Source: Flagellimonas maritima
Lineage (GTDB): Bacteria; Bacteroidota; Bacteroidia; Flavobacteriales; Flavobacteriaceae
Assembly (NCBI RefSeq): GCF_003269425.1
Contig: NZ_CP030104.1
Coordinates: forward strand, 921,001 to 985,000
Direction of reading: 5' to 3'
Length of the DNA stretch: 64,000 bases
This document shows positions 51,100 through 51,938 of the stretch, in pieces (the first letter of the stretch is position 1; every line of letters begins with the position of its first letter). Under the pieces are notes generated by a model that was given only the letters and a program-made list of their open reading frames with translations, was not told the origin of the DNA and did not search any database. A program made the position numbers and the translations under genes.

Positions 51100-51168
51100 G
51101 GGCGCGAAGGGATTCGAACCCCTGACCCTCCCGATGTAAAATCGGGATGTCCTGAAACACTACTTCCC
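51100..51168 (-). pseudogene. decayed tRNA, copy 1 (distal)
   Basis: Minus-strand tRNA-like sequence of 69 nt. The T arm AGGGG-TTCGAAT-CCCTT and the 3' acceptor CGCGCCC are intact and identical to those of tRNA-Val(TAC). The 5' half is damaged: acceptor GGGAAGT and a D arm shortened by about seven bases relative to the truncated copy at 51878. The anticodon arm CCCGA-TTTTACA-TCGGG would give anticodon TTA with C at position 37, which is not normal. The GIY-YIG stop codon lies inside its 5' part. Confidence 0.75.
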
Positions 51169-51402
51169 TATTAATTTTTCGATCATCTTGCGGCTCTTCC
51201 ATCGCTTGATCTGCTTTTCCCTTGACATGGCCTCGGTCTTAGAAACGAACCCTTCGACGAACTTGATCTCCCAGTCCTTTGCCCTGCCCGTAAACCCTTT
51301 ATGGAACTGGTTGTGCTTTATAAGGCGGGCTTCCAGGTTTTCGGTATACCCGATATAGAACTTATCGAGGACCCGTGAATATAATATATAGGTGTAGAAC
51401 AT
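51160..51402 (-). CDS. GIY-YIG nuclease domain protein (intact copy)
   Basis: 80 residues, starting M-F-Y-T-Y-I-L-Y-S. The GIY-YIG motifs appear as Y-I-L (residues 5-7) and Y-I-G (16-18), followed by the conserved Arg in E-A-R-L (26) and H-N (30-31), and a Glu in R-E-K-Q-I-K that is the usual metal-site residue. Small stand-alone GIY-YIG proteins of this type are common in Bacteroidota; their role is not settled. The last codons read into the 5' end of a decayed tRNA. An in-frame extension upstream exists but runs through a terminator and another tRNA remnant, so the ATG at 51402 is preferred. Confidence 0.8.
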   Translation of the reverse strand: MFYTYILYSRVLDKFYIGYTENLEARLIKHNQFHKGFTGRAKDWEIKFVEGFVSKTEAMSREKQIKRWKSRKMIEKLIGK

Positions 51403-51412
51403 CGTGTAAAGG

Positions 51413-51440
51413 AAAAGGCCTCCCATACATGGGAAGCCTT
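51413..51440 (-). terminator. terminator hairpin preceding GIY-YIG copy 1
   Basis: Minus-strand stem AAGGCTTCCCAT / ATGGGAGGCCTT (one mismatch) followed by TTTTCC. It is the 3' flank of the tRNA remnant at 51444 and lies just before the nuclease ATG. Its T-run is interrupted compared with the copy beside the intact tRNA. Confidence 0.6.
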
Positions 51441-51443
51441 TGT

Positions 51444-51512
51444 GGGCGCGAAGGGATTCGAACCCCTGACCCTCCCGATGTAAAATCGGGATGTCCTGAA
51501 ACACTACTTCCC
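51444..51512 (-). pseudogene. decayed tRNA, copy 2
   Basis: Identical to the copy at 51100-51168: intact T arm and 3' acceptor, damaged acceptor 5' strand and D arm, abnormal TTTTACA anticodon loop. It lies between the two GIY-YIG ORFs and contains the stop codon of the upstream (broken) copy. Confidence 0.75.
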
Positions 51513-51746
51513 TATTAATTTTTCGATCATCTTGCGGCTCTTCCATCGCTTGATCTGCTTTTCCCTTGACATGGCCTCGGTCTTAGAAACGAACCCTTCG
51601 ACGAACTTGATCTCCCAGTCCTTTGCCCTGCCCGTAAACCCTTTATGGAACTAGTTGTGCTTTATAAGGCGGGCTTCCAGGTTTTCGGTATACCCGATAT
51701 AGAACTTATCGAGGACCCGTGAATATAATATATAGGTGTAGAACAT
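51504..51746 (-). pseudogene. GIY-YIG nuclease, copy with in-frame amber codon
   Basis: Same 81-codon frame as the intact copy, but codon 32 is TAG instead of CAG (plus-strand CTA at 51651-51653). This cuts the protein after the Y-I-G motif and the conserved Arg and removes the rest of the fold. The sequence is otherwise identical to the intact copy, so the change is recent. Starts 42 bases downstream of the intact tRNA-Val(TAC) and its terminator. Confidence 0.85.
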
Positions 51747-51756
51747 CGTGTAAAGA

Positions 51757-51784
51757 AAAAGGCCTCCCATACATGGGAAGCCTT
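51757..51784 (-). terminator. terminator of tRNA-Val(TAC)
   Basis: Minus-strand stem AAGGCTTCCCAT / ATGGGAGGCCTT with five T, starting three bases after the tRNA 3' end. The T-run is uninterrupted here, unlike in the distal copy. Confidence 0.75.
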
Positions 51785-51787
51785 TGT

Positions 51788-51861
51788 GGGCGCGAAGGGA
51801 TTCGAACCCCTGACCCCTTGGGTGTAAACCAAGTGCTCTGAACCAACTGAGCTACGCGCCC
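51788..51861 (-). tRNA. tRNA-Val(TAC)
   Basis: 74 nt. Acceptor GGGCGCG/CGCGCCC, D arm GCTC/GAGC, anticodon stem CTTGG/CCAAG with loop TTTACAC giving anticodon TAC, T arm AGGGG-TTCGAAT-CCCTT. All stems pair. It is the only intact tRNA in the array, and CCA is not encoded. Confidence 0.95.
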
Positions 51862-51877
51862 GAAATCTTTATTTTTC

Positions 51878-51938
51878 GGGAACCTGAACCCTCCCGATGC
51901 AAAATCGGGATGCCCTGAACCAACTGAGCTAAGCGCCC
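51878..51938 (-). pseudogene. 3'-truncated tRNA-like sequence upstream of tRNA-Val(TAC)
   Basis: Starts with GGGCGCT-TA-GCTC, has a normal D loop and an anticodon arm CCCGA-TTTTGCA-TCGGG like that of the decayed copies, then breaks off in the T arm (no TTCGAAT loop and no 3' acceptor). With a seven-base loop the anticodon would be TTG, but position 37 is C. It cannot mature as a tRNA, but its transcript leads into tRNA-Val(TAC). Confidence 0.7.

Follow-up and report, generated by a model that had tools for sequence, protein, structure and literature searches.

Palindrome-marked tRNA remnants beside a small GIY-YIG nuclease gene: a candidate homing-like element at a tRNA-Val locus of Flagellimonas maritima

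Introduction

The closest known counterpart of the locus analyzed here, a transfer RNA (tRNA) gene for valine followed by tandem copies of a small GIY-YIG nuclease gene in the bacterium Flagellimonas maritima, is SegB, a free-standing GIY-YIG homing endonuclease of the T-even phage tRNA array (PMC13096335; PMC2988022). SegB is reported to make breaks inside tRNA genes, as mapped by SITE-seq, and to amplify the tRNA-segB segment in tandem; its authors propose that the 5′ region of the tRNA recombines with the 3′ region of segB (PMC13096335). We examined the F. maritima locus within a window of 64,000 nucleotides, the whole stretch of DNA analyzed, taken from NZ_CP030104.1 of the 3.77-Mb genome; all coordinates are positions in this window. 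A GIY-YIG nuclease lies beside tRNA genes in both systems, and SegB is, as far as these texts go, the nearest documented precedent; an open reading frame (ORF) that ends inside a tRNA copy, as found here, would give homology like that of the tRNA 5′ and segB 3′ regions. SegB is larger than the ~80-residue nuclease of this locus. It is also phage-borne, whereas the present family has one relative in our scan of IMG/VR, and in the available part of the SegB report there is no mention of palindromes marking tRNA remnants, of a chromosomal tRNA acting as a substitute or of an ORF that terminates within a tRNA remnant (PMC13096335).

For small GIY-YIG proteins of the UPF0213/Slx1 type (PDB 1zg2, 1ywl, 7cq2, 6seh), no link to tRNA genes turned up in this analysis; unlike these, the subfamily at our locus ends in KSRKMIEKLI and then runs into tRNA sequence. 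Integrase-type islands in tRNA 3′ ends are flanked by a repeated tRNA 3′ end and leave one tRNA functional. Both traits recur here, but the 344-bp unit is too small for an integrase, and further points of difference are the altered anticodon arm, the hairpins and a tRNA that is unlike that of near relatives over its whole length. The repetitive extragenic palindromes (REP) with their associated tyrosine transposases (RAYT) combine short palindromes with a small nuclease gene, an HUH (Y1) transposase; our locus likewise has short palindromes near a small nuclease gene, with dispersed palindrome copies in the genus, but the nuclease is GIY-YIG, not HUH, and the strict-pattern CCCGA hairpin is confined to the locus in the window genome. 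The 178-bp repeats of Escherichia coli tyrT stand in tandem downstream of a tRNA and each contain a tRNA 3′ end, as do the repeats here; to our knowledge they hold no GIY-YIG gene and no anticodon-arm hairpin. Synthetic home-and-rescue and cleave-and-rescue (ClvR) drives direct a nuclease at an essential gene and link it to a resistant copy of that gene. ClvR is synthetic, whereas at this locus such a logic is read from anatomy and the resistance of the substitute tRNA is putative.

No paper on such elements in Bacteroidota chromosomes was among the titles listed in the open full-text literature (subscription papers lie outside this scope), and the words COG2827, UPF0213 and Bacteroid are absent from the main text, as available, of the 2006 GIY-YIG superfamily study. 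We regard the element as a variant of the free-standing homing elements, with a substantial chance that it is of a new kind altogether. The reading that we favor, with moderate confidence, is of a small homing-like element. It would invade tRNA genes, leave behind remnants that carry palindromes, and either preserve or provide a single functional tRNA. Its parts would be an ~80-codon GIY-YIG ORF ending in a tRNA remnant, hairpins in non-functional tRNA copies, and one intact tRNA.

Results

Anatomy of the tRNA-Val locus

The sole tRNA called in the region is a tRNA-Val(tac) at 51861-51786. The first-pass annotation, made by a model from the letters of the window, had reported two head-to-tail 344-bp units behind it with two differences, and alignment bears this out (51653/51309 and 51756/51412, 2 of 344 positions). 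Each unit does contain a hairpin behind the tRNA 3′ end, a GIY-YIG frame and a tRNA remnant as had been described; the 80-codon ORF ascribed to both is not confirmed for both. One of the two differences puts a TAG into the frame of unit A. The tRNA-proximal copy is therefore a pseudogene, and unit B alone has an uninterrupted frame. The array in the F. maritima genome is thus ageing. A simple scan finds the terminator-like site in both units and its full 12-pair form in A only.

The unit remnants, previously taken for decayed tRNAs, are not the product of plain decay: their anticodon arm carries CCCGA-n-TCGGG (letters TCCCGATTTTACATCGGGA in each). A T arm and 3′ acceptor common to the intact tRNA and both remnants were correctly recognized, although the identical stretch is 31 bp (positions 46-76), not 29, and the coincidence of the unit boundary with the tRNA 3′ end is a consequence only of the point at which the tandem repeat is opened. 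The hairpin has a third copy (51888-51911), overlooked earlier, in an upstream pseudo-tRNA (51938-51862). The hairpin pattern ATCCCGAN{3,9}TCGGGAGGGT occurs three times in the genome, all at this locus, and a search of the other 70 genus genomes gave no match. As read from the sequence, the TAG stop of ORF B corresponds to T8-A9-G10 of the tRNA remnant. The features, all on the minus strand with the exception of the modC-like right anchor, are as follows.

51786..51861 (−): intact substitute tRNA-Val(tac), CTTGG anticodon-stem type (tRNA calls, Rfam scan)
51758..51785 (−): terminator-like hairpin 3′ of the tRNA (terminator scan)
51442..51785 (−): tandem unit A, 344 bp (repeat alignment)
51507..51746 (−): GIY-YIG frame of unit A, a pseudogene with nonsense TAG at 51651-51653 (frame comparison)
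51469..51492 (−): hairpin of the tRNA remnant in unit A (pattern search)
51442..51472 (−): T arm with 3′ acceptor in remnant A, no difference from the intact tRNA over 31 bp (alignment)
51098..51441 (−): tandem unit B, 344 bp (repeat alignment)
51160..51402 (−): intact GIY-YIG nuclease ORF of unit B, 80 aa and stop (PF01541 match, structure model)
51125..51148 (−): hairpin of the tRNA remnant in unit B (pattern search)
51098..51128 (−): T arm with 3′ acceptor in remnant B, no difference from the intact tRNA over 31 bp (alignment)
51911..51938 (−): pseudo-tRNA-Val, positions 1-28, without a tRNA call
51888..51911 (−): hairpin TCCCGATTTTGCATCGGGA, standing where the pseudo-tRNA would have its anticodon arm, with the variable loop (pattern search; G000:C1:972888-972911)
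51862..51887 (−): decayed T arm of the pseudo-tRNA and spacer (sequence; tRNA model does not match)
51939..52011 (−): native tRNA-Val promoter/leader, common to empty loci L120 and L121 (alignments)
52012..53223 (−): folC-like gene, left syntenic anchor (ORF; genus matches)
51055..51093 (−): 15-bp inverted repeat, terminator-like, beyond the last remnant (repeat search)
50125..51003 (+): modC-like ABC ATPase gene, right anchor (ORF; also past tRNA-Val in empty locus L121)

Head-to-tail repeats with long identical blocks, one of them with a nuclease pseudogene, also suit another history, which we consider unlikely: plain tandem duplication and decay. In that case tRNA-Val would have been duplicated together with its terminator and a harmless GIY-YIG gene in between, the surplus tRNA copies would have decayed or been remodelled, and REP-like palindromes would have landed in some of them, the nuclease having no role.

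Empty sites and an other-type tRNA at the folC locus

We searched for the same locus across the genus. A folC match was obtained in 58 of 60 genomes (E 1e-100), and tRNA-Val(tac) stands downstream of folC in 25 of 30 fetched loci, the window included; the other five show no tRNA at this place. Empty tRNA-Val sites, for which the first-pass annotation had proposed to look, are thus present at the same locus in other species: these loci carry one plain tRNA-Val, and neither the nuclease nor a CCCGA/TTCCGA hairpin was found in the available stretch of the 24 other folC-tRNA-Val loci (L130 and L133 with <400 bp downstream), which leaves the Val-type nuclease in 1 of 25. The comparison of occupied with empty alleles, here and at yqeY (below), is between species.

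At the window locus an other-type tRNA accompanies the nuclease. Its CTTGG/CCAAG anticodon stem occurs in 1 of 71 genus genomes (this one), and its 76 bases are identical to the tRNA-Val that accompanies related nucleases in records of Flavivirga, Algibacter, Seonamhaeicola and Tenacibaculum (L048, L058, L062, L105). No second tRNA-Val(tac) was found in the genome. The earlier idea that a carried tRNA 3′ end keeps the host tRNA functional is not supported in that form, as no native tRNA-Val survives and a complete tRNA of another type is there instead. The CTTGG tRNA was rejected as a universal mark of the element, being present in 123 of 249 family genomes; among 30 fetched loci with this tRNA, nuclease and hairpin accompany it in L176 and the hairpin alone in L177.

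The nearest relatives at this locus are L120 and L121 (folC 80% and 78% identical), whose leader aligns with that of the window. Positions 1-28 of the pseudo-tRNA match their tRNA in 27 of 28 bases, including T7 (GGGCGCT), where the intact tRNA has G7; identity to the intact tRNA over the same stretch is 93%. Similarity to L120/L121 is gone past the variable loop. Since the leader aligns and the tRNA similarity is lost past the 5′ stretch, the native promoter has been kept and the native tRNA is gone. The family genome G101 offers a parallel at folC (L197), where an intact CTTGG tRNA and a terminator come first, then a fossil, another intact CTTGG tRNA and the nuclease, with a remnant that carries a hairpin at the end. 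The hairpin letters of its fossil are identical to those of the window fossil, the two fossils being 96% identical over 53 bases, and so the hairpin of the pseudo-tRNA probably came with the element. The 5′ half of the pseudo-tRNA may be native (T7 as in L120/L121; G7 in L197) or mostly element-borne, and the left crossover is bracketed between the leader and the anticodon arm. In L197 (1450-2260) the two tRNA-Val genes are identical to one another, with the hairpin fossil between them.

Several observations weigh against the homing-like element. The similarity to L120/L121 drops in the anticodon arm and is still loosely alignable there with a gap; a sharp left junction at the anticodon stem was considered and rejected, because the full alignment shows this drop and no clean break. 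The element of G101 sits behind an intact first tRNA that it did not destroy. A single base pair separates the window tRNA from a type that 8 of the 25 genus loci carry, so that donor and route are not fixed. The loosely alignable fossil arm suits duplication and decay, whereas the intact tRNA, different in type from that of the nearest relatives at folC, does not. Synteny was rejected as a guide to the right boundary: L121 has modC, but a different gene intervenes. In L133, the 5′ half of a tRNA-Val is broken in the D loop by another palindrome and an intact tRNA-Val follows; no nuclease lies within the short stretch available.

The arrangement recurs across the nuclease family

We then considered the best 80 of 131 loci from a protein scan, mostly Bacteroidota. 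The upstream sequence exceeds 150 bp at 72 of them; a same-strand tRNA call that ends less than 150 bp upstream of the ORF is present at 48 of these 72 (Val 33, Ala 11, Arg 1, Lys 1 and two odd calls), and at least four of these tRNAs (L044, L046, L059, L065) are remnant-like or defective. At tRNA-Met (L045) and tRNA-Asn (L112) the order is reversed, with a tRNA 5′ half and palindrome, the ORF and then an intact tRNA. Tandem copies are found elsewhere, three in G018 and G303 and two in G184 and G016 (the second match partial). The homing-like mobile element proposed by the first-pass annotation is supported on these grounds together with the empty folC sites; its explanation by the tRNA 3′ end is the part that is not supported. 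None of the outcomes it had named as speaking against mobility (no empty sites, boundaries never at the tRNA 3′ end in relatives, the same ORF in single copy away from tRNAs with conserved synteny) occurred for the tRNA-linked subfamily. The other small GIY-YIG genes of the genome (L001, L002, L006) have no tRNA call within ~1.5 kb and, read by eye, end differently.

A CCCGA..TCGGG or TTCCGA..TCGGAA hairpin lies between −30 and +150 of the ORF end in 64 of the 80 loci. The CCCGA stem accounts for 63, and the other 19 permutations of the stem average 1.3; we read the count for the CCGAC permutation (20) as mostly the CCCGA hairpin shifted. The longer stem TCCCGA occurs 127 times in 118 kb near the ORFs vs 7 times in 308 kb far from them. 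At the sixth position of the stem, 58 of 63 hairpins keep a Watson-Crick pair and all four pair types occur, whereas 10,000 shuffles gave a mean of 24 and a maximum of 38; the observed figure is inflated by relatedness. At the hairpin-bearing loci the stop codon is TAG in 40 of 64 (TAA 20, TGA 4); its distance to the hairpin that follows is 6-33 bases at 49 of these loci (peaks at 22, 18 and 8), and at 10 it falls in or beyond the hairpin. A hairpin also stands within 130 bp before the upstream tRNA, as it does in the window, at 17 of 46 loci vs 1 of 55 control tRNA-Val loci. Plain duplication and decay is at odds with an order that recurs at Val, Ala, Arg and Lys tRNAs and is reversed at Met and Asn, with a hairpin that covaries and occupies one fixed place, and with a stop in the matched frame of just 4 of the 80 named relatives.

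A protein tree of 104 rows was calculated (the window, 76 named and 27 genus sequences; stop-containing frames excluded, that is 4 of the 80 named and some genus ones). With the nearest tRNA call as label (Val, Ala, Arg or Asn, 75 of 104 rows), the isotype changes seven times over the labelled rows, and 200 shuffles gave 23 or more, on a short tree of 79 columns that is weakly resolved at depth. An isotype that follows the nuclease clade and a covarying hairpin at the former anticodon-arm position, which suits RNA, would also fit a toxin-antitoxin-like system, in which the nuclease cleaves the tRNA itself at the anticodon arm and the remnants act as decoy RNAs or the substitute tRNA is resistant. 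We judge this improbable; hairpin or palindrome remnants with no detected nuclease (L248, L191, L198) speak against it.

The one relative from the IMG/VR scan lies at a contig end (L223) in the order T arm, ORF, hairpin, T arm; this order matches, and L223 is thus the same element. General carriage by phages was rejected on the strength of this single relative. In Pedobacter (L044), several short hairpin units without an ORF resemble non-autonomous derivatives. CCCGA..TCGGG hairpins also stand beside tRNA-Asp, tRNA-Asn and tRNA-Pro (L191, L192, L198, L201), with no GIY-YIG gene detected.

Empty, occupied and replaced states at a tRNA-Arg locus

A second locus was available for comparison. tRNA-Arg(tcg) lies downstream of yqeY in 29 of 30 fetched loci, the remaining one being cut by a contig end, and a nuclease is found within 700 bp of it in 4 of 29 (L224, L231, L239, L240); L030 and L035 are two further occupied tRNA-Arg loci. 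We read 12 loci at yqeY/tRNA-Arg by eye and viewed 17 genus loci (L010-L025, L030). L225 and L227 are empty. In L231 and L035 a palindrome stands between A9 and G10 of a 5′ fossil, followed by the ORF and an intact tRNA whose type is the same. L224 and L239 are of similar build, with palindromes in the fossil. In L240 the tRNA and the nuclease precede a remnant that has palindromes in both the D loop and the T arm. L030 shows a fossil of GGCCGCG type with a palindrome; the intact tRNA behind it is of GGCCCAG type, and the nuclease and a marked remnant of the tRNA 3′ part come next. L248 pairs a two-palindrome fossil with an intact tRNA, no nuclease being detected, and L228, L232 and L244 have extra sequence before the tRNA with no recognizable fossil. 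In the loci read, palindromes are in fossils and in no intact tRNA. The tRNA-Arg locus shows empty, occupied and replaced states.

Both associated tRNAs vary in sequence, as a toxin-antitoxin-like system would also have it: the 25 folC loci yield six sequences of tRNA-Val(tac), the least similar pair being 78% identical, and the 29 yqeY loci yield six of tRNA-Arg(tcg), with 72% for the least similar pair. The sister tRNA-Val(gac), compared with that of the window, is 100% identical in 50 of 71 genomes and 99% in 13 (63 of 71 at 99-100%); the other eight comprise two at 97%, three that reach 84-86% over 70 bases, and three partial or doubtful matches. This comparison covers three tRNAs only, and the 30 aligned tRNA-Val(GAC) loci are the best-scoring ones, biased to identity.

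Palindromes of the type CCTGCC..GGCAGG are dispersed in the genus, where a genome holds between 0 and 68 of them, compared with 0 to 4 for the reversed pattern as a control, and similar ones mark tRNA-Arg remnants beside a GIY-YIG subclade. In genomes with marked tRNA-Arg remnants the counts are 68 (G045), 38 (G001), 21 (G007), 15 (G050) and 4 (G008); further counts are 37 (G005), 22 (G018) and 0 or 1 (G004, G015, G034). A partnership of nuclease and palindrome is possible, and abundance alone is no proof of mobilization by the nuclease. Dispersal of this kind is a further point for duplication and decay with landing palindromes.

The nuclease

The unit B protein matches PF01541 (E 6e-17, 62.1 bits vs a cut-off of 22.6). 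Tyrosine, glycine, arginine and glutamate positions are conserved in GIY-YIG nucleases. Y16, G18, R26, H30 and E62 are invariant in 32 aligned sequences, the window and 31 of the 80 named loci, hand-chosen (L068 left out for a stop codon). The predicted structure (mean predicted local distance difference test score, pLDDT, 93.5) has HIGLE and Slx1 as nearest folds, then UPF0213, I-TevI and UvrC, and profile comparison places UPF0213 first. Given the nuclease-like fold and the invariant catalytic positions, DNA cleavage by the protein is likely and structure-specific cutting possible, as judged from the model. The nearest relatives share 64-67% identity, and the best match in another genome of the genus 58%; the subfamily C-terminus is KSRKMIEKLI. 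The clustered protein P0001 (51160-51546), of 128 aa, reads through the preceding tRNA remnant, and a start at 51402 is likelier.

The nuclease is stand-alone, without a self-splicing intron: Rfam matches only the tRNA over 50900-52100 at E 0.01, and a group I intron or other RNA was rejected on this result. No integrase gene is present in the unit, the nuclease frame being its only protein-family match. The protein matched none of the PADLOC families at E 0.001, for which reason a known anti-phage defence system was rejected, and it has no NCBIfam match. The lack of a PADLOC match and nearest folds that are DNA nucleases (Slx1, I-TevI, UvrC) likewise tell against a tRNA-cleaving toxin. The relation to small stand-alone UPF0213 proteins, together with a terminator-like hairpin at the head of each unit, could point to a domesticated DNA-repair nuclease that uses read-through transcription from the tRNA as a convenient weak promoter. 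We hold this to be very improbable, as tandem copies and a nonsense copy do not suit a conserved housekeeping gene, nor do the reversed arrangements with the tRNA downstream (L045, L112, L224) or a Val-type nuclease in 1 of 25 folC-tRNA-Val loci.

Discussion

On the reading that we favor, the nuclease would target a tRNA gene that holds no element, the probable place of the cut being the D region or the anticodon region, and the break would be repaired by homologous recombination with element-bearing DNA, the tRNA sequence serving as the homology. As comparison with the empty loci shows, the native promoter is retained and the native tRNA is lost or cut down to its 5′ stretch, which leaves the other-type tRNA in the element as the only tRNA-Val(UAC) found in F. 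maritima. The resident tRNA copy would not be cuttable by the nuclease. The repeated T-arm/acceptor blocks would permit gain and loss of tandem units by recombination. We propose tentatively that such an element might amount to a natural cleave-and-rescue gene drive, in which an ~80-residue nuclease destroys unoccupied alleles of an essential, often single-copy tRNA, the element supplies an uncuttable tRNA of different sequence, and the palindromes mark and silence the leftover tRNA pieces.

If the homing-like reading is true, essential tRNA genes of many Bacteroidota are targeted by a very small mobile element able to swap the tRNA, and SegB-like tRNA-linked homing extends from phages to chromosomes. 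It would help to explain how one isoacceptor changes in sequence within a genus while its sister changes little. Were the cleave-and-rescue proposal also true, an 80-residue nuclease would suffice for a natural system of this kind, which would drive allele turnover for Val-UAC, Arg-UCG and perhaps Ala-GGC in Bacteroidota. For annotation, a tRNA-like call whose anticodon stem reads CCCGA..TCGGG is probably a remnant when a GIY-YIG gene lies next to it.

Additional observations

Contigs labelled as metagenome-assembled genomes of Streptomyces griseus and Actinomyces viscosus (L079, L087) carry the element, which is otherwise of Bacteroidota type, and these bins are probably mislabelled. At L001 (1380-1780), a small GIY-YIG gene is flanked by inverted palindrome-like copies (..TCGAGCGCAGTCGAGATG.. 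/ ..CATCTCGACTGCGCTCGA..), and a similar palindrome lies downstream of the small GIY-YIG gene at L002. Genome G279 (L188 and other places) has five dispersed ATCCCGATA..TATCGGGAGGGT palindromes, perhaps a separate REP-like family.

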